Below, piece by piece: positions 20,616 through 40,942 of a stretch of DNA of 41,741 bases. The notes beneath the pieces were generated by a model. That model was not told the origin of the DNA. It ran no database searches and worked only from the letters and a program-made list of their open reading frames with translations. The stretch spans positions 1 to 41,741 of the IMG/VR virus record IMGVR_UViG_3300009507_003143. One strand, 5' to 3'. A program made the position numbers and the translations under genes. Source of the stretch: a virus. Positions within the stretch are counted from its first letter, which is position 1. Each line of letters starts with the position of its first letter.

Positions 20616-20932
20616 TTATTCAACCAAAAACAACAGGCACTATTGTTAGCTTAAAGCTAATCAGTGGTGAAGAAATTGTTGGACGCTTTGAAAGCGAGTC
20701 TGACACAACATTTTCAATCAGCAAGCCTTGCTTGGCTGCTATGACACAAAATGGTCCAACACTTGCACCGTTTATGTTTACTATGAGCCCACTTGATGAA
20801 GCAGACGCTAACCACGTTGTAGAGATCAACAAAAGCACAGTTGTAACATCAGTTGTAACATATAAGCCATTTGCAGATGCTTATACTAATGCAACATCAA
20901 GCATTAAACCTGCATCGGGTCTTGTACTATAA
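20612..20932 (+). CDS. Small beta-rich protein, possibly Sm-like
   Basis: The 106-residue protein starts TTGTIVSLKLISGEEIVGRF, a strand-turn-strand pattern seen in Sm-like folds and in cyanophage proteins I recall with no function. It has no transmembrane or catalytic motif. It overlaps the glutaredoxin gene and ends in a TAATG overlap with GAPDH, so all three are translated as a unit. An RNA-binding or regulatory role would fit an Sm fold, but the similarity is weak. Confidence 0.65.
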   Translation: MIIQPKTTGTIVSLKLISGEEIVGRFESESDTTFSISKPCLAAMTQNGPTLAPFMFTMSPLDEADANHVVEINKSTVVTSVVTYKPFADAYTNATSSIKPASGLVL

Positions 20933-21891
20933 TGATTAAAGTTGCAATAAATGGCTTTGGCAGAATTGGCAGAGCAACCGCTAGGCATATATTAGAATCA
21001 AGACCGGATATGCAACTTGTTAAAATTAATGCATCAGGCGACTTGGACACTAATCTACACTTGTTAAAGTATGATAGTGTTCACGGTCGCTTTGCACACC
21101 CAGACATCGACAACATTGAATGGACTCATACTAGAAGCTTAGCCGAACTAGATTGGACAGGCATTGATGTTGTGTTAGAATGCACAGGTGCATTTAACAA
21201 TGGTGAAGCTTGTAAAGTACATTTGCAAAAAGGCGCACGTAAAGTTGTTATAAGCGCACCTGCTAAAAATGTAAAGCGCACAGTTGTTTATGGTGTTAAT
21301 CACAATACTATTACAGCAAATGATCACATTATAAGTAATGCAAGTTGCACAACAAATTGTTTAGCACCACTTGCAAGAGTATTGCACAACACAGTTGGAA
21401 TACAATCGGGTATAGTAACTACAATACACGCATACACTGGTGATCAACTTACACACGACAAAGCACACAAAGATTTATATAGAGCCCGTGCTGCAGGCGT
21501 AAGTATGATTCCTACATCAACAGGAGCCGCAAGCGCAATAGGCGATGTAATACCTGCGTTGAGCGGAGTACTAGACGGCAGTGCTATTAGAGTACCAACA
21601 CCAAACGTAAGTTGTGTTGATATGACATTTGTAGCAAAGCGAGACACTATCAAAGAAGAAATTAATACTATTGTACATCAAGCAAGTCTTGAAATGCCAA
21701 CAGTATTGGGTTATGAGTCACAGCCACTTGTGAGCATTGACTTTAATCACACTAGCGAAAGCAGTATATTTGCTCCTGACCAAACAAAAGTAGTTGGCGG
21801 CAATCTAGTGCGTGTACTAGCGTGGTATGATAACGAATGGGGCTTTAGTTGCAGAATGGCAGATACTGCGAGTGTATTGGCTAAATACTAA
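20932..21891 (+). CDS. gap: Glyceraldehyde-3-phosphate dehydrogenase, type I
   Basis: The 319-residue product is complete: Rossmann start INGFGRIGR, SNASCTTNCLAP with catalytic C139, H166 in TIHAYTGDQ, and a typical end (WYDNEWGFSCRMADT). The enzyme oxidises glyceraldehyde-3-phosphate and reduces NAD(P). At the cofactor-selective sites it departs from NAD-type enzymes. The usual IND is here INAS (A34 at the place of Asp32), and the usual LP before HKDL is K177-A178. In bacterial GAPDH mutagenesis, changes at Asp32, Leu187 and Pro188 shift preference to NADP. I infer NADPH production for ribonucleotide reduction. Translationally coupled in the nrdB operon. A phage gap gene is very rare. Confidence 0.93.
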   Translation: MIKVAINGFGRIGRATARHILESRPDMQLVKINASGDLDTNLHLLKYDSVHGRFAHPDIDNIEWTHTRSLAELDWTGIDVVLECTGAFNNGEACKVHLQKGARKVVISAPAKNVKRTVVYGVNHNTITANDHIISNASCTTNCLAPLARVLHNTVGIQSGIVTTIHAYTGDQLTHDKAHKDLYRARAAGVSMIPTSTGAASAIGDVIPALSGVLDGSAIRVPTPNVSCVDMTFVAKRDTIKEEINTIVHQASLEMPTVLGYESQPLVSIDFNHTSESSIFAPDQTKVVGGNLVRVLAWYDNEWGFSCRMADTASVLAKY

Positions 21892-28551: not shown

Positions 28552-29094
28552 TTGGCTAATAATTCAAAGCGTCAACAACAGTCCGTTGTTGCCAATCACG
28601 ATATACGAGCACCAAAGGTCCGTGTGATTGACGAGAATAATAATAAACTAGGAGTACTAGATACTTCTGTAGCTAAGCGTCAAGCGTTTGAAAGCAACCT
28701 AGATTTAGTATTGATTACAGACAAGGCTGATGTGCCTGTCTGCAGAATCGTAGATATGGGCAAGTTCCTGTATGAACAAAAACAAAAGGCCAAAGAAGCG
28801 GCACGTAATCAACGACAGTCTAAGATTGAAGTTAAAGAAGTACAGTTTCGTCCGAATATTGATATTCACGACTTTGAAACAAAGTGCAAACACGTTACAC
28901 GCTTTATTGCCAAAGGCGCCTTAGTAAAAGTTCTTGTACAGTTTAAAGGACGTGAACGCAGTAGAACTGAAAAGGGATTTGATATTATTAATCGTATTGT
29001 TGACACAGTACAAGATGTTGAATTTGACAGCAAGCCTACTCTCTACGGTAATCGCATAATTGCAGTATTAAGGAAAACAAAAGAAAATGTCTAA
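28552..29094 (+). CDS. infC: Translation initiation factor IF-3
   Basis: The 180-residue product is a full-length IF-3. The N-domain has IRAPKVRVIDENNNKLGVLD and VPVCRIVDMGKFLYEQKQKA, the lysine-rich linker is present, and the C-domain has VKEVQFRPNIDIHDFETK and KVLVQFKGRERSRTEKG. IF-3 binds the 30S subunit and rejects poor start codons. The gene starts with TTG, with no in-frame ATG before the conserved N-domain. In bacteria infC starts with a rare codon (AUU) to repress itself; the phage seems to keep this logic. It is followed by bS21 in an 8-base overlap, so the two are made together. Confidence 0.95.
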   Translation: MANNSKRQQQSVVANHDIRAPKVRVIDENNNKLGVLDTSVAKRQAFESNLDLVLITDKADVPVCRIVDMGKFLYEQKQKAKEAARNQRQSKIEVKEVQFRPNIDIHDFETKCKHVTRFIAKGALVKVLVQFKGRERSRTEKGFDIINRIVDTVQDVEFDSKPTLYGNRIIAVLRKTKENV

Positions 29095-29342: not shown

Positions 29343-29642
29343 ATGAGCAATTCAACAGATATTGCAACTGTCGATCGTACGACTGTTGCTCCACCACGAA
29401 AATGGAATGTAGTATTCTATAACGATGACAAAACTCCAATGGAATTTGTTATTGCAATTCTAATGGAATTGTATGGTCATTCAAACGAAGCCGCTATGGC
29501 TATTACTATGCAAGTACACGAGCAGGGTAAAGCAGTAGCAGGAACATATTATATTGAAGTAGCAGAACAAAAGTGTACAGACACACTAACAGCGGCACGT
29601 TCCGAAGGTATGCCACTACAAGTAGAAATCGAAAAATCATAG
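29343..29642 (+). CDS. clpS: ClpS adaptor protein
   Basis: ClpS binds N-degron proteins and presents them to ClpAP. The 99-residue product has the pocket motif YNDDKTPMEFVI and VHEQGKAVAGTYYIEVAEQK, both matching bacterial ClpS; the N-terminal extension for ClpA gating is present. The phage also has a ClpP gene near 39.2 kb. It would redirect the host protease to specific targets. Same operon as IF-3 and bS21. Confidence 0.94.
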   Translation: MSNSTDIATVDRTTVAPPRKWNVVFYNDDKTPMEFVIAILMELYGHSNEAAMAITMQVHEQGKAVAGTYYIEVAEQKCTDTLTAARSEGMPLQVEIEKS

Positions 29643-29651
29643 GATATTAAA

Positions 29652-29786
29652 ATGACACAACTAATCAAGCACATAGTTGACTATGTAGCAATTTTCTTGC
29701 TGTTTGCAGTACCGTTTTCGTTAACAGTGTTGCCTTGGGCAATTGGCATTACTACAATGTTTAAAATGCTAGTAGGTGCAAACTGA
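29652..29786 (+). CDS. Small membrane protein
   Basis: The 44-residue peptide ([20 protein letters not shown], then [12 protein letters not shown] and a short end) is nearly all one or two membrane helices. It begins 9 bases after clpS and ends in a TGATG overlap with the GMP reductase gene, so it is an integral part of the operon. No function is recognised; it may modulate host membrane complexes. Confidence 0.72.
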
Positions 29787-30871
29787 TGCGTATTGAATCT
29801 GAAGTTAAACTAGATTACAGTGATGTATTGATTCGCCCAAAGCGTAGTACACTTAAAAGCCGTAGTCAAGTAAAGTTGGCTCGCAAGTTTGAATTTAGAA
29901 ACAGCAAAAAAGAATACGAAGGTATTCCTATTATGGCTGCTAATATGGACGGTGTTGGCACAATTGAAATGGCTGATACTCTTGCACAACAAAGTATCTT
30001 CACTTGTCTTGTTAAAACATATTCAGTAGAAGTACTAGCTGAATTCTTTAACAACGATTATCCAGACCGTAGACGTCAAGAAAACGTTGCTATGAGCATT
30101 GGCACAAGTGATGCAGACTTTCTAAAGTTAGTAAACGTTGTAGCCAGTGTAGGTGGAAATTTAAAGTTTGTTTGTATGGATATTGCAAACGGATACAGTG
30201 ATCATTTTGCGGCAAGGGTACGTAAGGTACGTGACCAGTTTCCGCATTTGGTAATTATAGCAGGTAACGTTGTTACCGGAGAAATGACAGAGGAGTTAAT
30301 TTTAAGTGGAGCAGATATCGTTAAAGTTGGTATTGGTCCTGGTAGTGTATGTACTACTCGCATACAGACTGGCGTTGGGTATCCTCAATTGTCCGCTGTC
30401 ATCGAGTGCGCAGATGCTGCTCACGGTCTTGGCGGTCATATCATTGCCGATGGCGGCTGCACTTGTCCTGGCGATGTAGCTAAAGCATTTGCAGGCGGAG
30501 CAGACTTTGTAATGCTTGGCGGTATGCTAGCTGGTCACAATGAAGGCGGCGGTGAAGTAATCACAAAAGAATATCACACACAAGAAATTGGCGTTACAGA
30601 AACAAAGCAGTTTATACAGTTTTATGGTATGAGTAGTGATGCAGCAAATACAAAACACTTTGGTGGACTAAAAGACTATCGTAGCAGTGAAGGACGTGAA
30701 GTACTTGTTCCTTATCGTGGTGCAGTAGAAGCTACTGTACAAGACTTGTTGGGTGGCATACGCAGTACTTGCACATACGCTGGTGCAATGAAGCTAAAGC
30801 AGTTGAGCAAGTGTGCAACGTTTGTACGTGTACACAACCAGTTTAACGCAGTGTACGCCGGCAAAAACTAA
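29786..30871 (+). CDS. guaC: GMP reductase
   Basis: The enzyme converts GMP to IMP and ammonia using NADPH, letting salvaged guanine nucleotides feed the purine pool. The 361-residue TIM-barrel protein has the family signatures [15 protein letters not shown] with catalytic C189, [19 protein letters not shown], and [17 protein letters not shown] reductase rather than IMP dehydrogenase is indicated by length, absence of CBS domains and these flanking motifs. It is the last gene of the takeover operon, before a terminator. Confidence 0.92.
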
Positions 30872-32922: not shown

Positions 32923-33077
32923 TGTCAGTAGCAACACTTGGCAAATACCTTGTTGCATTTGCAATGGGTGTATGGGCATTTGGTGAATCAGCTGGACGTG
33001 CTAGAGCAGCATCAGCTTTGGCATCAATGGGACATCACGAAGAAGCACGTAAACTAATGTTAGGAAAAAACAAATGA
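32922..33077 (+). CDS. Small membrane-associated protein
   Basis: The 51-residue peptide has a hydrophobic helix ([17 protein letters not shown]) and an amphipathic end with [14 protein letters not shown]. The LxxMGHxExAR motif is shared with the 44-residue protein at 33520. Start and stop overlap neighbours (TAATG and ATGA), supporting a real gene. No function is recognised. Confidence 0.68.
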
Positions 33078-33295
33078 CTGGTGATATAGCAACAATGGGC
33101 GCGATGATTGGCGCAGGGTTAGCAACAATTGGAATGGGTGGCGCAGCCATCGCAGTAGGAATTATTGTAGGCAGTGTACTTAAAGCAATGCCAAAGAACA
33201 AAGACACAGGCACAATGTTTGTTGGTGTTGCGTTCGCAGAAGCATTAGGTATCTTTGCATTCCTAGTAGCTCTACTACTAATGTTTGCTGTCTAA
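33074..33295 (+). CDS. atpE: ATP synthase F0 subunit c homologue
   Basis: The 73-residue protein is a two-helix hairpin closely matching bacterial subunit c. Helix 1 has [20 protein letters not shown]. Helix 2 has [20 protein letters not shown] with E56 at the place of the proton-binding carboxylate. The polar loop lacks the usual RNP/RQP and is shortened ([11 protein letters not shown]). In cells subunit c forms the rotor ring of F1F0. A phage copy could insert into the host ring or form rings of its own, changing proton flux or coupling. It starts in an ATGA overlap within the tiny-gene run. Homology is clear; effect is inferred. Confidence 0.88.
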
Positions 33296-34144: not shown

Positions 34145-34924
34145 ATGGCTCTCCATAAACAAAAAGTAACCAAAGTCCATCATTGGACTGACAAAACATT
34201 TAGTTTTCAAGTAGAACGCCCTGCAAGCTTTCGCTTTCGTAGTGGTGAATTTGTTACCATTGGATTAGAAGTTAATGGTAAGCCATTGCTACGTGCATAC
34301 AGTATTGCATCGCCAGCGTGGGAAGATCATTTGGAATTTCTCAGCATTAAAATTGAAGATGGACCACTAACAAGCAAACTGCAACACATACAACCCGGAG
34401 ACGAAGTTGTGTTTACAAGTAAAGCAGTAGGAACATTATTGCCTGAAAATCTCAACGGAAACCGTAACTTGTATCTTATGGCAACAGGAACAGGACTTGC
34501 TCCTTTTATGAGTATTGCATTTGATCCAGCAGTATACGAACAGTTTGATAAGGTTATACTAGTACACACAGTGCGCTATACAGCTGAACACGCATACAGA
34601 GAAGAACTTAGCTCACTTACTAAACACCCAGTGTTAGGAGAGCTTACAGAGGGCAAATTTGTGTACTATCCTACTGTTACACGTGAGATGCCAGAAGATG
34701 GATTTGCAAGAAGCGGACGTGGAACAGACTTGTTCAGTCGTGGAGAAATTTACAAAGACTTAGAACTACAAGAGTTTGATGGCAATGTTGACGGAGCAAT
34801 GATTTGCGGAAGCACAGAATTTAATCAAGATTGTATTGACTTATTTGAATCACTTGGCGGTACAGGTGGCAATGCTAATAAACCCGGAAGCTATGTTTAC
34901 GAAAAGGCATTTGTAACCAAATGA
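34145..34924 (+). CDS. fpr: Ferredoxin/flavodoxin-NADP reductase
   Basis: The 259-residue flavoprotein exchanges electrons between NADP(H) and ferredoxin or flavodoxin. The FAD domain has FRSGEFVTIGL and R50-A-Y-S (RxYS, FAD). The NADP domain has MATGTGLAPFMSI and GAMICGSTEF, with the C-terminal YVYEKAFVTK matching the bacterial Fpr end. It pairs naturally with GAPDH-derived NADPH, and could serve the oxidative stress response or feed a ferredoxin-dependent enzyme. AlgH-like gene overlaps by ATGA. The family is secure. Confidence 0.93.
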   Translation: MALHKQKVTKVHHWTDKTFSFQVERPASFRFRSGEFVTIGLEVNGKPLLRAYSIASPAWEDHLEFLSIKIEDGPLTSKLQHIQPGDEVVFTSKAVGTLLPENLNGNRNLYLMATGTGLAPFMSIAFDPAVYEQFDKVILVHTVRYTAEHAYREELSSLTKHPVLGELTEGKFVYYPTVTREMPEDGFARSGRGTDLFSRGEIYKDLELQEFDGNVDGAMICGSTEFNQDCIDLFESLGGTGGNANKPGSYVYEKAFVTK

Positions 34925-35493
34925 ATTATTCAGACAGTTTATTATTCTCAGTATCACGAGATCCTTTAGCGGCAAGATACACTGATCCGCTAATGACAAA
35001 AACAGTAGCATACATTTATCATCACAGTGCAGACGGAGCAAGCGGATACCTTATTAATCTTCCAATGACAAAAGCGGCAGTTGATGAAGTAAATCACGAA
35101 CTTGCTTTTAAGGGACGTTTTGTAAAGAATGAACACTTGTATGTTGGCGGTGACGTTAGTTTAACTATGGGCTATGTAATACACTCACCGGATTACAATG
35201 GAGAGTACACCAGTAGCATAAACAGCAGTTTTTCAATTTCACACGGTGTAACAATACTAGACGATATTGGTATGGACAGAGGTCCATCTAGCTTTCAAGT
35301 AAACTTTGGTTTCTTAACTTGGGGACCAGGTGAACTAGAACAAGAAATAAAAGGCGGAACAATGTACAATCCCACGGGGCGTTGGATACCACAACCGTTT
35401 GATAAGAAATATATGTTTAATGCCACAGCGTGGCAAGAAGGCGTAGATCACATTGCACAATCACGTGCGCAAGAAATATTGGGTAAATTCTAA
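34921..35493 (+). CDS. AlgH/UPF0301 (DUF179)-like protein
   Basis: The 190-residue product shows the family landmarks in order: SLLFSVSRDPLAARYTDPLM, HHSADGASGYLINLPM, VGGDVSLTMGYVIHSPDY, FGFLTWGPGELEQEIKGG and then a W-rich end. AlgH proteins are widespread but of unclear function, linked in some bacteria to regulation or redox. Coupled to the ferredoxin reductase by a 4-base overlap, so a redox-related role is possible. The family call is by remembered pattern. Confidence 0.75.
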   Translation: MNYSDSLLFSVSRDPLAARYTDPLMTKTVAYIYHHSADGASGYLINLPMTKAAVDEVNHELAFKGRFVKNEHLYVGGDVSLTMGYVIHSPDYNGEYTSSINSSFSISHGVTILDDIGMDRGPSSFQVNFGFLTWGPGELEQEIKGGTMYNPTGRWIPQPFDKKYMFNATAWQEGVDHIAQSRAQEILGKF

Positions 35494-35824: not shown

Positions 35825-36643
35825 ATGACAACTGAAAAGAAAAGTTTCTTTCGTAAACTACTAGGCGAACCGTTGGTTATCGGAACCATCGTTGTTGGTC
35901 TAGGTACCGCCGTTGCAGTAGGAACATACTACGACGACTATATGACACTTTACGAAGAAGCAAACTCAGGAACTAAAGAAAAATCAGAAATAGAAATGCC
36001 AAGTGGATTGGTATTTTCTAAGATCGGTGAAAATTTATTTACACTCACTGGCGGAGTTGCAGTTGGAGATTGCGATAAAATCGTGCCTCAAATGCAAGAA
36101 AATATGACAGTGATATTAGAAAGCCCAGGTGGTAGTTTATCTGATGGTGCTTGTTTAGCAAGTCACTTTCAATTGCGTAACACAACCACAGTGGTAAGAA
36201 GTACACCGGTATACGATGAACTTGGTAAGATAATTTATCAACCCGGTGCAAACTCAGACGAATCATACAAGGGCAAAGTAATATGTGCAAGTAGTTGCAG
36301 TATTATGTTCTTGGGTGGAAAGAATCGTTATTTAATTGGAGACGTTGAATATGGCATACACCGCCCAGCAACAGCTCCGGGCGCAGGACAAAATCAAAGT
36401 CTTGCGGCAGTTGAATCAGCAGCTTTCCGTATAGCGGCAAGTATGATTGATCTTCTAACAAATCTAGGACTAACAGATGAAAAAGTAAAACTGCTTTTCA
36501 TTCGTGTCCCTAACTCATCTATGTACTGGTTACGTCCGTCAGACTTTGACAGATTCCCGGCACTATCAGAACTAGCAACACACTACATTGACTTTCACGG
36601 TCTAACGTGGGCTAGTCCTAGAGCTAACCTACCTACAATCTAA
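35825..36643 (+). CDS. Membrane-anchored ClpP-like serine protease (COG3904 type)
   Basis: The 272-residue product has a short basic start and a membrane helix (about residues 16-34), leaving the bulk probably periplasmic. A ClpP/SppA-like fold follows: VILESPGGSLSDGACLASHF at 96-115, CASSCSIMFLGG at 154-165 with S156 the probable nucleophile, and YGIHRP with H179. This resembles COG3904 periplasmic proteins. It would cut proteins at the membrane surface or in the periplasm. It leads the operon with the transporter and proton channel genes, so one of these could be its substrate. The fold is fairly sure; activity is inferred. Confidence 0.75.
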   Translation: MTTEKKSFFRKLLGEPLVIGTIVVGLGTAVAVGTYYDDYMTLYEEANSGTKEKSEIEMPSGLVFSKIGENLFTLTGGVAVGDCDKIVPQMQENMTVILESPGGSLSDGACLASHFQLRNTTTVVRSTPVYDELGKIIYQPGANSDESYKGKVICASSCSIMFLGGKNRYLIGDVEYGIHRPATAPGAGQNQSLAAVESAAFRIAASMIDLLTNLGLTDEKVKLLFIRVPNSSMYWLRPSDFDRFPALSELATHYIDFHGLTWASPRANLPTI

Positions 36644-36658
36644 GAAAGGTACTACAAA

Positions 36659-37675
36659 ATGCTTAACAGCTTTTTTCTAAGACGCAATGAATTTTTATAT
36701 GCTTGGGGGATGCTAGCAGTCTTGCTAACAGTCGCTTGGTATAATGTTGAAATTCTTGTGTACTACAATTCGTGGAACAAAGAGTTTTACGATTCGATCC
36801 AAACACTTCAAGAAGAGCGCTTCTGGGAACTATTATGGGGATTTGATTCAACTCGATTCAAAGACTTGATTTTACTCAAAGAAGATATTATTCCTAGCTT
36901 TGTGGAAATTATTATATTGTATACTCCACTAGCAACATATACAGTCTGGCAGACACAACGATATACTTTCCGTTGGAGAGAAGCCAATACTAAATATTAC
37001 TTGCTACGATGGGAAGACAGTAACGCTAAAATCGAAGGTGGATCGCAACGTATTCAAGAAGATTTAATGCACTTTGGTAAAACACTTCAAAGCTTGTTTA
37101 CTGGATTCTTTAGCGCAATACTTGTACTAGTTGCATTTATTCCTATTCTTTGGCACCTAAGCGCAGGACTTCCTGTGTGGAACGGTACTATCATTCCAGG
37201 GTTCTTAGTTTGGGTAGCAATTGCAATTACATTCGGTGGCACAGCGATTAGTTTGATTCTAGGTTGGAAACTTCCGGGACTAGAATATAAAAACCAAGTT
37301 GTTGAAGCAAGGTTCCGTAAGAAGCTTGTTTACTCAGAAGATGACTTTACACAACGTGCAACACAGGATTTATTCCCAATGTTCTCGGCAGTAAAACGCA
37401 ACTACTATCGCTTGTTTAACTGGTATATGGGTTTTGGCTTATGGCAAACATTGTTTGGTATGGCTGTTGGTAATATTGCTATTGTAGTATTGGCACCAAG
37501 CTATTTCGGACAACTTATTACACTAGGTGTATTGTTTCAAGTTATCAATGCATTTGGACGAGTAGAAAGCTCAATGACGTACTTTATTGACAGGTGGACA
37601 ACAATCGTTGAATTTATGTCAGTAATCAAACGTATCAAAGAGTTTGATAAAGCACTAGTTGAATCTGGCGCATAA
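36659..37675 (+). CDS. sbmA: SbmA/BacA-like peptide transporter
   Basis: SbmA/BacA proteins are proton-driven inner membrane importers of antimicrobial peptides, microcins and bleomycin; BacA is needed for Rhizobium symbiosis. The 338-residue protein follows the family from its early FYDSIQ segment. Later come FRWREANTKYYLLRWEDSNA, KIEGGSQRIQEDLMHFGKTL, LGWKLPGLEYKNQVVEARFR and KKLVYSEDDF. It is shorter than cellular SbmA (about 400 residues) by part of the N-terminus. No ATPase domain is present. A phage copy may change uptake of peptides, signal molecules or competing toxins. It is encoded just before an ExbB/ExbD-like pair. Confidence 0.9.
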   Translation: MLNSFFLRRNEFLYAWGMLAVLLTVAWYNVEILVYYNSWNKEFYDSIQTLQEERFWELLWGFDSTRFKDLILLKEDIIPSFVEIIILYTPLATYTVWQTQRYTFRWREANTKYYLLRWEDSNAKIEGGSQRIQEDLMHFGKTLQSLFTGFFSAILVLVAFIPILWHLSAGLPVWNGTIIPGFLVWVAIAITFGGTAISLILGWKLPGLEYKNQVVEARFRKKLVYSEDDFTQRATQDLFPMFSAVKRNYYRLFNWYMGFGLWQTLFGMAVGNIAIVVLAPSYFGQLITLGVLFQVINAFGRVESSMTYFIDRWTTIVEFMSVIKRIKEFDKALVESGA

Positions 37676-37694: not shown

Positions 37695-38168
37695 ATGATT
37701 TTTTGGAAATGGTGGACAAGTATTGTTTTGGTAGGAGCGAGTGTATTCGCTGGCTCTTACTACTTAAACATAGTAAGCTTTGTCCTAGAAAATGATCCAA
37801 CATATATTACAGTAGGTATTGCGGCGTTGTTTGTAATTACTACACTATGGATCGGAACACTAAGCTGGCGTGTACAAAATGGTACTAAGCTAAGCGAAAA
37901 TAATACAATGCCAACTTGGTTTATTGCTGACGCAGTAATGAGTATTGGTATGGTGGGGACACTACTGGGCTTTTTGATTGTACTAACAAGTGCTTTTCAA
38001 AACGTCGACACAAGTGACACACAAGCAATGCAGGACGTTATTGGGCAACTTGCAAGCGGTATGGGTACAGCACTATTAACAAGTCTTATGGGACTAGTAA
38101 GCAGTGTAATTCTCAAATTCCAGCTTGTTATGCTTGAAACTGATAATGCTGGTGAGGACGATGCGTAA
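37695..38168 (+). CDS. MotA/TolQ/ExbB-like proton channel subunit
   Basis: The 157-residue protein has about three membrane helices and the family core SIGMVGTLLGFLIVLTSAF, then LASGMGTALLTSLMGLVSSV. In ExbB, TolQ and MotA these two helices surround the aspartate-bearing helix of the partner to make a proton-driven motor. It is shorter than cellular TolQ (about 230). The next gene overlaps and encodes the expected partner. The unit could energise a periplasmic process such as the BacA-like transporter or a periplasmic effector. Confidence 0.82.
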   Translation: MIFWKWWTSIVLVGASVFAGSYYLNIVSFVLENDPTYITVGIAALFVITTLWIGTLSWRVQNGTKLSENNTMPTWFIADAVMSIGMVGTLLGFLIVLTSAFQNVDTSDTQAMQDVIGQLASGMGTALLTSLMGLVSSVILKFQLVMLETDNAGEDDA

Positions 38169-38757
38169 GTATAGTTCAAACCTAGCATTTGTTGATATGC
38201 TATTCAACTTGCTTATTGGATTTACAAGTTTGTTTATTATTGCATTCTTGCTAATCAACCCAATTGCCAAACAAGGTAAGATTGATCCGGTAACACAGAT
38301 TATGATTACTGCACAATGGGACGCAGAAAGTGTGGTTGATATTGATATGTGGGTAAGAGGACCCGATGGCGCAGTTGCTAGTTATCAAGGCAAAGACAGA
38401 CGCTATATGGTACTAGACAGAGACGACTTGGGTATTGCTAACGACAGATATGTTATCAATGGCGAAGTAAGAACTGTAATGCGCAATATTGAAACACTAA
38501 CTGTCAACGATATTGTACCAGGTGAGTATGTTGTTAGCATACATTACTTTGGTCCAGCTAAGAGCCCGGGCTCAGAAACTGTTACAGTTGAAATAACTGA
38601 TATGCATCCGTTTAGAATTGTTTACGGCGAATCACACACACTAACACTAAAGCAGGAAAAAAGCTTTGTTAGTTTTGTAGTTAACGAACAAGGACAAATT
38701 GTAGATATCCGCACAGACGTTGAAATCTACCTACGTAGACCACCAATGGCTAACTAA
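38161..38757 (+). CDS. ExbD/TolR/MotB-like protein with periplasmic beta domain
   Basis: I start at the ATG at 38161, inside the previous gene's end, since a longer frame gives an unlikely extension. The 198-residue product has one N-terminal membrane helix with D12 (LAFVDMLFNLLIGFTSLF), the proton-carrying aspartate of the family. The periplasmic part (about 50-180) is beta-rich. DIDMWVRGPDGAVASY and PGEYVVSIHYFGP resemble YfaP/DUF2135-like sandwich domains instead of the OmpA or ExbD ends. No peptidoglycan-binding site is visible. It should act with the ExbB-like subunit and touch an unknown partner. Confidence 0.78.
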   Translation: MRKYSSNLAFVDMLFNLLIGFTSLFIIAFLLINPIAKQGKIDPVTQIMITAQWDAESVVDIDMWVRGPDGAVASYQGKDRRYMVLDRDDLGIANDRYVINGEVRTVMRNIETLTVNDIVPGEYVVSIHYFGPAKSPGSETVTVEITDMHPFRIVYGESHTLTLKQEKSFVSFVVNEQGQIVDIRTDVEIYLRRPPMAN

Positions 38758-38769
38758 AGGAGAAACTAA

Positions 38770-39240
38770 ATGACACTTATAACCACTATTGTCTTGACAA
38801 GCTTGTTAATTTGTTGTATAGTAGCAGTATTAGTGTATTACAGCACAGCACCGTTTTTTATTAAACTAACTGCGCTACCAGTAGTACTAGTATTATGCAC
38901 TAGCTTAGTGCTAACAACAATAGATAGAATGGGTGCACCAATCAAATCATTTCCAACAGGACAGTTTGATTATGTACATCACATAACTGCTCAACAAGGC
39001 GAAGTCATTTTGTTATGGGCTACAACTAAAGAAAAAGGCACTCGACTTTATATGTTTCCATACAGCAGAGAAACACAAAAAGAACTAGACGAAGCCAAGA
39101 AGGATCAAGTTGCAGGCAAACCACAAGTTGGTGAGTTTGATACAGATCCCAAGAACGGCGGAGAGCCAAATGACCCTATGCTCAAAGTTGTTGACAAAGA
39201 CACTATTCAATTAACCCCTGAAGATTTTGTAAAGGAATAA
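38770..39240 (+). CDS. Hypothetical membrane protein
   Basis: The 156-residue product has two membrane helices at the start (about residues 4-24 and 28-50) and a soluble region. That region includes TGQFDYVHHITAQQGEVILL, then YSRETQKELDEAKKDQVAGK and a proline-acidic end. The helices leave the C-terminal half on one side of the membrane. It follows the ExbD-like gene by 12 bases with AAGGAGAAA upstream. No family is recognised; it is likely part of the same membrane assembly. Confidence 0.72.
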   Translation: MTLITTIVLTSLLICCIVAVLVYYSTAPFFIKLTALPVVLVLCTSLVLTTIDRMGAPIKSFPTGQFDYVHHITAQQGEVILLWATTKEKGTRLYMFPYSRETQKELDEAKKDQVAGKPQVGEFDTDPKNGGEPNDPMLKVVDKDTIQLTPEDFVKE

Positions 39241-39247
39241 CAAAAAA

Positions 39248-39883
39248 ATGAAAAAAGTAACAGGTGTAATACCAGAACCAAAAGAAGCACCAACACCACC
39301 GCCTCCTCCTCCGATGCCGGCTCCACAGTCGCCACCTAAGAAACCAGGAGAAGCACTATACGAAAATGGTGTGCTGTTTATGGACAAAGAGTTCAATCAA
39401 GAGAACTGTATGCCATTGGTTAAGATGATTATGGAATACAATATGATGCCTGAGCATCAACGTCCAGACGTTATCCGACTTTACATTAACTCACCAGGTG
39501 GCGCAGTACACAGTGCGTTTCATTTGATTGATGTTATCAAACAGTCACGTATTCCAGTACACACATACGGTATGGGAATGATTGCTAGCTGTGGTGTATT
39601 GCTAATGATGGCCGGAGAAAAAGGACATCGTTATCTAACACAAAACACTAGCATTATGTCTCACCAGTACAGCTGGGGTTCGGGCGGTAAAGAACACGAG
39701 CTAATGTCAATCATTAAAGAGTTTGAACTATCATCAGGACGTATGATTGACCACTATAAAAAATGCACAGGAAAAACTGAAAAGTATATTCGCAAGCATT
39801 TGCTTCCAGAGTCAGACGTATGGTTGACAACTGAAGAAGCAGTAAAACACGGCATCGCAGACCACGTTGTCGAAACTTATTAA
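39248..39883 (+). CDS. clpP: ClpP protease
   Basis: The 211-residue product has a proline-rich N-terminal extension (residues 8-33, a run of prolines), absent in usual ClpP. The ClpP domain follows: IRLYINSPGGAVHSAF, MGMIASCGVLLMMAG with S114, IMSHQYSWG with H139, and ESDVWLTTEEAVKHGIADHV with D190. The full catalytic triad is kept. It would form rings with Clp ATPases such as host ClpA or ClpX. The phage ClpS near 29.4 kb could supply substrates. Propeptide or docking roles for the proline tract are inference. Confidence 0.92.
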   Translation: MKKVTGVIPEPKEAPTPPPPPPMPAPQSPPKKPGEALYENGVLFMDKEFNQENCMPLVKMIMEYNMMPEHQRPDVIRLYINSPGGAVHSAFHLIDVIKQSRIPVHTYGMGMIASCGVLLMMAGEKGHRYLTQNTSIMSHQYSWGSGGKEHELMSIIKEFELSSGRMIDHYKKCTGKTEKYIRKHLLPESDVWLTTEEAVKHGIADHVVETY

Positions 39884-39895
39884 GGGAAAGAAGTA

Positions 39896-40942
39896 ATGGC
39901 ACTAAACGTTGAAGTCGTAGAAGCAGGTGGTTATCACCAAGTGCTTCGCGGCACTAACAGTGAAACTGGATTAGATGCAGTAGTAGCTATCCACAACACT
40001 ATGCTAGGAGTAGCACTAGGAGGTTGTCGTATTATGCAATATAATAGTTACGACGAACAACTAGCTGACGCCCTAGCGTTAAGCAAAGGTATGACCTATA
40101 AAAATAGTCTTGCTGGTTTGAATCTTGGTGGTGGTAAAACTACTATCAACACTCACGGCAAGCCAGTAACCGAAGAACTGCTAGCCAGCTTTGGTGAATT
40201 TATGGATTATGTAAACAAAGACCGAGTACAATACATTACAGCAGGTGATGTAGGTAGCGGACCAGAAGTAACAGAAGTTATTGCAAAGTACACTGACTTT
40301 ATTCAAGGTGCAGTTGGCAGTGACAGCGGTTGGGCTACAGCGTATGGAGTTTACAATGGTATGCTTGGTGCCTTGCGATTCAACAACCAAAGTATCAAGA
40401 ACAAGCACGTTGCTATCAACGGACTTGGTAAAGTAGGCGCACGTCTAGCACGTTTCTTAGTAGGTGCAGGTGCACGTATTACAGTTGCAGACATCAATAA
40501 AGAACAAGCACAACGAGTAGCAGATGAACTTGGCGGAAGATGTGTAGACTACACAGAAATCCACAAAGTAGAATGTGATATCTACAGTCCTTGTGCAGTT
40601 GGTGGAGCAATCAATTCAACTACAGTTGGCGAACTACGTTGTGCTATTGTATGCGGCGGAGCAAATAACCAATTAGCAACTGATGATATGATGGACGCAC
40701 TTATTGCAAGTAACATTATGTACGTTCCTGATTACCTAGCCAACAGTGGCGGTGTTATTATTGTATCAACAAGCGATGGCGGTAAGCTAATTGACTTGGA
40801 GTATCACACACCAGAAGTTGTTACCAAGCTTAATCATATCTGTGATGTTACTATGGAAGTATTCCGTGAAAGTGCAAAGTACGGATCAAACACAGCTAAA
40901 GTAGCAGACATTATGGCAGAACGCCGTTTGGTAGCATATTAA
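39896..40942 (+). CDS. ldh: Leucine dehydrogenase (Glu/Leu/Phe/Val dehydrogenase family)
   Basis: The enzyme oxidatively deaminates branched-chain amino acids to keto acids, with NAD. The 348-residue product has the substrate/catalytic part MTYKNSLAGLNLGGGKTTIN with K69 and K81, the family TAGDVGSGPEV segment, and a Rossmann part with AINGLGKVGARLARFL then VADIN whose Asp favours NAD. It ends the operon with ClpP, before a terminator. It would release carbon and ammonium from peptides freed by proteolysis or uptake. A phage leucine dehydrogenase is very unusual. Family secure; Leu versus Val specificity not settled. Confidence 0.9.
   Translation: MALNVEVVEAGGYHQVLRGTNSETGLDAVVAIHNTMLGVALGGCRIMQYNSYDEQLADALALSKGMTYKNSLAGLNLGGGKTTINTHGKPVTEELLASFGEFMDYVNKDRVQYITAGDVGSGPEVTEVIAKYTDFIQGAVGSDSGWATAYGVYNGMLGALRFNNQSIKNKHVAINGLGKVGARLARFLVGAGARITVADINKEQAQRVADELGGRCVDYTEIHKVECDIYSPCAVGGAINSTTVGELRCAIVCGGANNQLATDDMMDALIASNIMYVPDYLANSGGVIIVSTSDGGKLIDLEYHTPEVVTKLNHICDVTMEVFRESAKYGSNTAKVADIMAERRLVAY

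Follow-up and report, generated by a model that had tools for sequence, protein, structure and literature searches.

The window, by which we mean the entire 41,741-nt stretch of DNA analyzed (virus record IMGVR_UViG_3300009507_003143, positions 1 to 41,741), carries at 36659-37675 a gene whose sequence identifies it as an intact, phage-encoded member of the SbmA/BacA superfamily that lacks the TM0 domain. The transporter represents a new subfamily of a known transporter superfamily, real and well conserved. Given that the importer gene lies directly behind a gene for a membrane-anchored protease-like protein in the readable loci of its clade, we suggest that the large marine phages with the SbmA-protease pair run a "cut and import" feeding route in infected cells. 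The genes concerned, all on the plus strand, are as follows.

35825-36643, plus strand: N-terminal transmembrane anchor followed by a ClpP-fold domain, 272 amino acids, a predicted periplasmic serine protease (AF2 model, Foldseek, invariant residues).
36659-37675, plus strand: short-form SbmA/BacA-family (SLiPT-like) transporter, 338 amino acids (Pfam, NCBIfam and PDB matches, residue mapping, tree).
37695-38168, plus strand: ExbB/MotA-like proton-channel subunit, 157 amino acids (PF01618, E = 1.9e-5, barely over the cut-off).
38161-38757, plus strand: ExbD/TolR-like protein with one transmembrane helix and a beta-rich, probably periplasmic domain (invariant Asp at 38194-38196).
38770-39240, plus strand: 156-amino-acid protein with an N-terminal hydrophobic region, the third member of the cassette.
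39248-39883, plus strand: ClpP protease, probably cytosolic (PF00574, E = 2.6e-33).
39896-40942, plus strand: Glu/Leu/Phe/Val dehydrogenase (PF00208, PF02812).

The transporter open reading frame is complete from ATG to stop and contains both family motifs quoted in the preliminary description. Its product matches Pfam family PF05992 (SbmA_BacA) over positions 7-314 of 315 at 272 bits (E = 1e-80), well past the curated cut-off of 24 bits, and the solved E. coli SbmA structures 7p34 and 9g3d at E = 7e-59. Together with the viral contig context, these matches bear out the preliminary description in placing an SbmA/BacA-family protein in a phage. Against the SbmA equivalog PRK11098 the protein scores 238 bits versus a cut-off of 492, and against PRK12369 (the NCBIfam "putative transporter"), to which it aligns over 322 of 326 positions, it scores 296 bits versus a cut-off of 385. 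Because it falls below both NCBIfam equivalog cut-offs, the phage protein belongs to a divergent subfamily and is not SbmA or BacA proper. Alignment with E. coli SbmA begins at SbmA residue 86, and the shared core spans phage residues 16-332; the approximately 85 residues ahead of the E. coli transport core, corresponding to TM0, are absent. This had been read as an N-terminal truncation that could alter function. However, the phage protein starts where PRK12369 and many bacterial short forms start, and since these cellular forms align end to end from residue 1, no part is missing by comparison with them and the TM0-less architecture is a normal one. The reading frame ends after the membrane domain and has no nucleotide-binding domain.

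Scans of the viral collection detected 61 loci with the single phage SbmA protein and 64 with a profile. The approximately 60 phage relatives are 57-78% identical, most of them 65-78%, and the median dN/dS among them is 0.06, indicating strong purifying selection. Several of the large contigs carrying relatives have T4-type Gp23 capsid genes, and the one Gp23 compared (L149) shares approximately 52-54% identity, over the portion that aligns, with the capsid proteins of Pelagibacter, Methylophilales and cyanophage isolates. The window itself is a tailed-phage contig. Besides phage replication genes it encodes an endolysin, a PAAR protein and a protein that may belong to the virion. Promoter and terminator scans gave chance-level results only. 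No true high-coverage relative was detected in the phage-isolate collection. Three long hits there, to two Acinetobacter MD-2021a contigs and to Salmonella S.Kent, were rejected as full-length bacterial SbmA from host-derived or contaminated records; in one of the Acinetobacter contigs the stretch inspected is chromosomal, and the Salmonella hit lies on a 7.5-kb contig listed as unverified. A fourth match, in MT839843, is partial and covers 45% of the query. The phage-labeled records CAKLQH020000002 and OR850887 resemble bacterial chromosome with an ordinary sbmA, and the Gammaproteobacteria MAG contig PBDY01000027, which has a 75% identical relative, is a phage contig with both Gp23 and terminase genes.

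The window also contains several host-type genes assigned by Pfam, namely GAPDH (20932-21891), translation factor IF-3 (28552-29094), ClpS (29343-29642), IMPDH/GMP reductase (29786-30871) and an AlgH-like protein (34921-35493). In addition, a 73-amino-acid ATP-synthase subunit c-like protein is encoded at 33074-33295 on the plus strand (PF00137, E = 2.6e-12, over the cut-off) adjoining a small membrane protein, an unusual gene for a phage.

In maximum-likelihood trees a deep lineage with SH-aLRT 99 unites the phage proteins with one Gemmobacter MAG protein, apart from the main SbmA/BacA radiation. Its deep position is provisional, because the trees were quick searches with some long branches. 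The Gemmobacter protein, at 50% identity, is the nearest cellular relative found, and no comparable hit was detected elsewhere among 248 genomes searched from the Gemmobacter family. The lineage is almost absent from bacteria and separate from enterobacterial SbmA. Descent from alphaproteobacterial BacA, a comparison proposed in the preliminary description, finds no support in this phylogeny, in which the phage proteins have their own deep lineage with a single close cellular gene; judged from the tree, the phage gene is not a recent capture of a host BacA.

The residues of the proton path were examined against E. coli SbmA, for which a 2026 structural paper names six ladder glutamates and the gate residue Tyr368, and in which transport is abolished or badly impaired once a ladder glutamate is gone (PMC13316013). 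Five of the six are retained in the phage protein (E. coli numbering first: E193=E134, E269=E209, E276=E216, E287=E227, E378=E318), as is the gate tyrosine (Y368=Y308). The sole ladder glutamate missing is E203, the equivalent of which is Q144. Key transport-pathway residues are thus lost at one position of six, and glutamine occupies this position in 41 of 50 aligned sequences. At the E378 position most of the clade has aspartate, whereas the window protein retains glutamate. Every phage protein in the tree has glutamate at the equivalents of E269 and E287, as opposed to asparagine and arginine in the ABC relatives. Neither the window nor five large contigs carrying relatives (121-342 kb) has an ABC ATPase (ABC_tran) match over the cut-off, and the idea of an ATPase acting in trans was discarded on this basis. 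Given the glutamates at positions 269 and 287 and no ABC ATPase, a proton-driven importer with an altered ladder would be expected. The earlier reading of a proton-driven importer is consistent with the family assignment, the five retained glutamates and the purifying selection; it is weakened by the glutamine at E203. Since most of the clade has glutamine in place of E203 and E. coli SbmA is crippled when a ladder glutamate is lost, proton coupling in the phage protein may differ. The substitution offers a natural test case for the glutamate-ladder model of proton coupling.

The most constant feature of the phage SbmA loci is the gene immediately upstream. It lies on the same strand and belongs to the 35825-36643 family in 58 of the 59 loci that can be read, the median gap being 19 bp; the lone exception (L061) is a 37%-identical protein from outside the clade. 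Other neighbors vary from locus to locus. The reverse check gave the same picture, as SbmA lies within the 4-kb flanks of 65 of 70 loci of the partner family, the remaining five comprising two contig ends, two very weak matches and one real exception (L220). The AF2 model of the partner (pLDDT 79) has a ClpP fold behind an N-terminal hydrophobic helix, with a best Foldseek E-value to ClpP of 4e-6 (VIA Z 14.9, rmsd 2.7 over 159 residues). Six residues are invariant among 25 sequences: Ser156 (36290-36292) and His179 (36359-36361), both located in ClpP-type active-site motifs, and Cys83, Cys110, Cys154 and Cys158. No third residue of a catalytic triad could be pinpointed beside Ser156 and His179, and the 272-amino-acid protein matches no Pfam family, CLP_protease included. 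A positively charged N-terminus precedes the hydrophobic helix, and this, along with the conserved cysteines, suggests that the putative catalytic domain is periplasmic.

A search of 240 alphaproteobacterial genomes at E = 1e-8 returned no member of the partner family, a weak result given that the search had no positive control, and no partner-family gene lies within approximately 1.5 kb of the bacterial short-form SbmA copies examined. This protease-like partner of a phage SbmA is striking and apparently undescribed in the open-access literature. Another small gene of approximately 83-109 amino acids, possibly exported, often sits directly upstream of the ClpP-fold gene (L034, L027, L045) and is a possible further member of the unit.

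Downstream of the transporter lie the ExbB-like, ExbD-like and 156-amino-acid genes. The listed frame for the ExbD-like protein opens at a TTG at 38125, but the ATG at 38161 is the likelier start, and its outer domain has no significant match in the PDB. This cassette is less tightly tied to SbmA. Of 62 loci in the window's clade, 31 have relatives of ExbB and ExbD next to SbmA, and 21 have ClpP relatives near it. Where ExbB and ExbD are not adjacent, ExbD is found elsewhere on the contig in two cases (G005, G008) and is not detected on three other contigs, some of them large. The cassette itself is cohesive. A scan with the ExbD family matched 442 viral stretches, and among the best 80 of these ExbB precedes ExbD in all 76 loci that could be judged, and the 156-amino-acid gene follows in 77; an SbmA gene lies no more than 3 kb away in 30 and a ClpP gene no more than 4 kb away in 20. 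ExbD homologues also occur in 27 Rhizobium/Sinorhizobium phage records, and the 156-amino-acid protein, too, is present in Rhizobium phages. The bacterial search covered Alphaproteobacteria, where the ExbD family occurs in 57 of 385 genomes and, in the 12 neighborhoods read, the three-gene cassette stands alone. Its solitary occurrence in alphaproteobacterial chromosomes suggests that the cassette is of host origin and that the phages have alphaproteobacterial hosts, and no more than that. Stand-alone copies (L458-L469) include some from low-GC (27-29%) alphaproteobacterial genomes, and in two of them (L465, L469) a beta-propeller-type gene is close by. As for the dehydrogenase at 39896-40942, it is a possible candidate for downstream amino-acid catabolism and a putative member of the module.

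The SbmA genes found near the best 80 of the 442 ExbD-like loci nearly all come from a second lineage of phage SbmA, which shares 31-36% identity with the window protein, is of the short form, has an intact ladder and is placed elsewhere in the tree. Three of four of its proteins tested pass the PRK12369 cut-off. A single origin of both phage lineages is rejected (p-AU 3e-5), and therefore the SbmA-cassette neighborhood arose with two different SbmA lineages. The second lineage is apparently common, with 339 matching viral stretches (L369-L448 and L231-L302 among the loci). The cassette is not obligate here, being adjacent in only 8 of the 80 closest of these loci. In 13 of the same 80, an HtrA-like trypsin-PDZ protease lies 0.8 kb downstream of SbmA, and in one locus (L283) a ClpS gene sits between cassette and SbmA. 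Proteases recur in the Rhizobium phages as well. A trypsin-like peptidase adjoins the cassette or lies within approximately 3 kb of it in phages 16-3, X2_25, TM3_3_14B and N3_13, and for 16-3 p036 Trypsin_2 was confirmed and the N-terminus resembles a signal peptide. Across six Rhizobium phage loci read (L140-L145), genes annotated as "hypothetical" match ExbB-ExbD-156 in the three tested, and trypsin-like peptidases are near in four.

For transport, protease activity, topology, substrate and the purpose of the module, we infer the following route. The ClpP-fold protein would cut envelope or incoming proteins on the outer side of the inner membrane, and an SbmA-like dimer would import the resulting peptides, driven by the proton gradient. 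ClpP and host peptidases would then degrade the imported peptides and feed phage synthesis, with the ExbB-ExbD-156 cassette likely applying proton-motive force to the envelope step, or gating it. Our case for this salvage of peptides is built mainly on the recurrence of unrelated proteases around the same parts. Against it, the linkage of the cassette is loose, as half of the clade's loci have none nearby. Taken whole, with protease, importer and cassette acting as one module, the model is plausible but tentative, with somewhat less than an even chance of being right. A more specific form is doubtful, though possible: that marine T4-like phages encode a "digest and import" machine in which a periplasmic ClpP-fold protease forms an operon with an altered-ladder SbmA importer, often energized or gated by the proton-driven ExbB-ExbD-156 cassette, and that such machines came together on two or more occasions, each time with a different SbmA lineage. 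A machine of this sort, if real, would constitute a novel type of phage system. The preliminary description had offered import of competing bacteriocins or supply of nutrients as roles. The former gains no support; the latter is the better half of that guess and is favored by the fixed pairing with the ClpP-fold protein, the importer role itself being predicted.

ZorAB in the Zorya system senses or responds to envelope disturbance, and the same parts could conceivably serve superinfection exclusion or envelope defense, with the ExbBD-like cassette sensing disturbance, the protease destroying incoming phage proteins and SbmA clearing the peptides. The ExbB-like protein is indeed nearest to ZorA motor domains in the defense library (E = 2.5e-9), and proteases do recur beside the cassette in Rhizobium phages. 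Nevertheless, it aligns to the motor domain only and, at 157 amino acids in all, has no ZorA tail, and none of the module proteins tested matches ZorB, ZorC or ZorD. Moreover, the constant mate of the protease is SbmA and not the motor, and the cassette stands alone in bacterial chromosomes. We consider this reading unlikely. When defense-system membership of the module was checked, nothing emerged but the weak ZorA motor match.

Quite improbable is a role in maintaining or sabotaging the host envelope, whereby the inner membrane or proton gradient is altered, through BacA-like lipid effects or a pre-lysis proton leak, and nothing useful is imported. Proton-channel-like genes do cluster here (the ExbB/ExbD-like pair and the ATP-synthase-c-like gene at 33074-33295), and loss of E203 could favor a leak. 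However, the residues of the transport core are conserved under strong purifying selection, and the conserved unit contains no lysis gene. About as improbable is that the protein takes in one particular cargo with no nutritional role, for instance cobalamin, a signal or a modified peptide, as has been suggested for certain SbmA/BacA/Rv1819c relatives. Class I ribonucleotide reductase, of the NrdA plus NrdB type, needs no cobalamin, and it is this type for which the same phage carries both genes. The constant protease partner likewise points to peptides, although the superfamily is promiscuous, with Rv1819c transporting cobalamin (PMC3603451, PMC13316013). Finally, that the gene is an incidental host gene, or that bacterial DNA was mistaken for viral, as seems to be the case for two public "phage" records with sbmA that resemble host DNA, is barely credible in view of some 60 relatives located on viral contigs, of which several carry Gp23, their dN/dS, the deep phage-specific lineage and the fixed gene partner.

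Phage gene sets are known to boost nucleotide, carbon and energy metabolism. If the conserved protease-importer pair works as peptide salvage would have it, some marine phages make the host periplasm a source of amino acids, a supply of importance where water is poor in nitrogen. What SbmA/BacA proteins do in nature is still a matter of debate, and a phage lineage that couples SbmA to a protease-like protein is a clear, testable hint that peptide salvage may be their natural role. In the open-access literature, with subscription journals and preprints mostly outside coverage, no title or abstract describes SbmA in phages, and a 2025 survey of SbmA/BacA distribution makes no mention of phages.

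Several known systems share parts with the one reported here. The membrane domain of the BclA/Rv1819c/YddA-type ABC transporters is homologous to phage SbmA (PF06472, E = 2e-10; 6tqe, E = 1e-14), but these proteins carry an ATPase domain and have asparagine and arginine at ladder positions 269 and 287. With ExbBD/TolQR and Zorya ZorAB, the cassette has in common a transmembrane helix with an invariant aspartate and a MotA/ExbB-type channel subunit. In contrast to them, its beta-rich outer domain has no significant structural match, its third, 156-amino-acid protein is constant, and no TonB, TolA or ZorC/D was seen with it. The upstream partner shares its predicted fold and Ser/His motifs with ClpP, but differs from it in having a membrane anchor, four invariant cysteines and no Pfam Clp match. 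The short cellular transporters (PRK12369), such as that of a SAR11 genome, have the same length and start as the phage protein and are likewise TM0-less and ATPase-less, whereas the phage protein branches outside them and scores below their cut-off. The Gemmobacter MAG protein falls in the same clade as the phage proteins, but its gene is chromosomal and without the module, and it has tyrosine at the E203 and glycine at the E378 position. Lastly, E. coli SbmA (SLiPT family; 7p34, 9g3d) shares with the phage protein the transport core, E193, E269, E276, E287, E378 and Y368; unlike it, the phage protein has no TM0, has glutamine at E203, and comes from a phage gene adjacent to one for a ClpP-fold protein.
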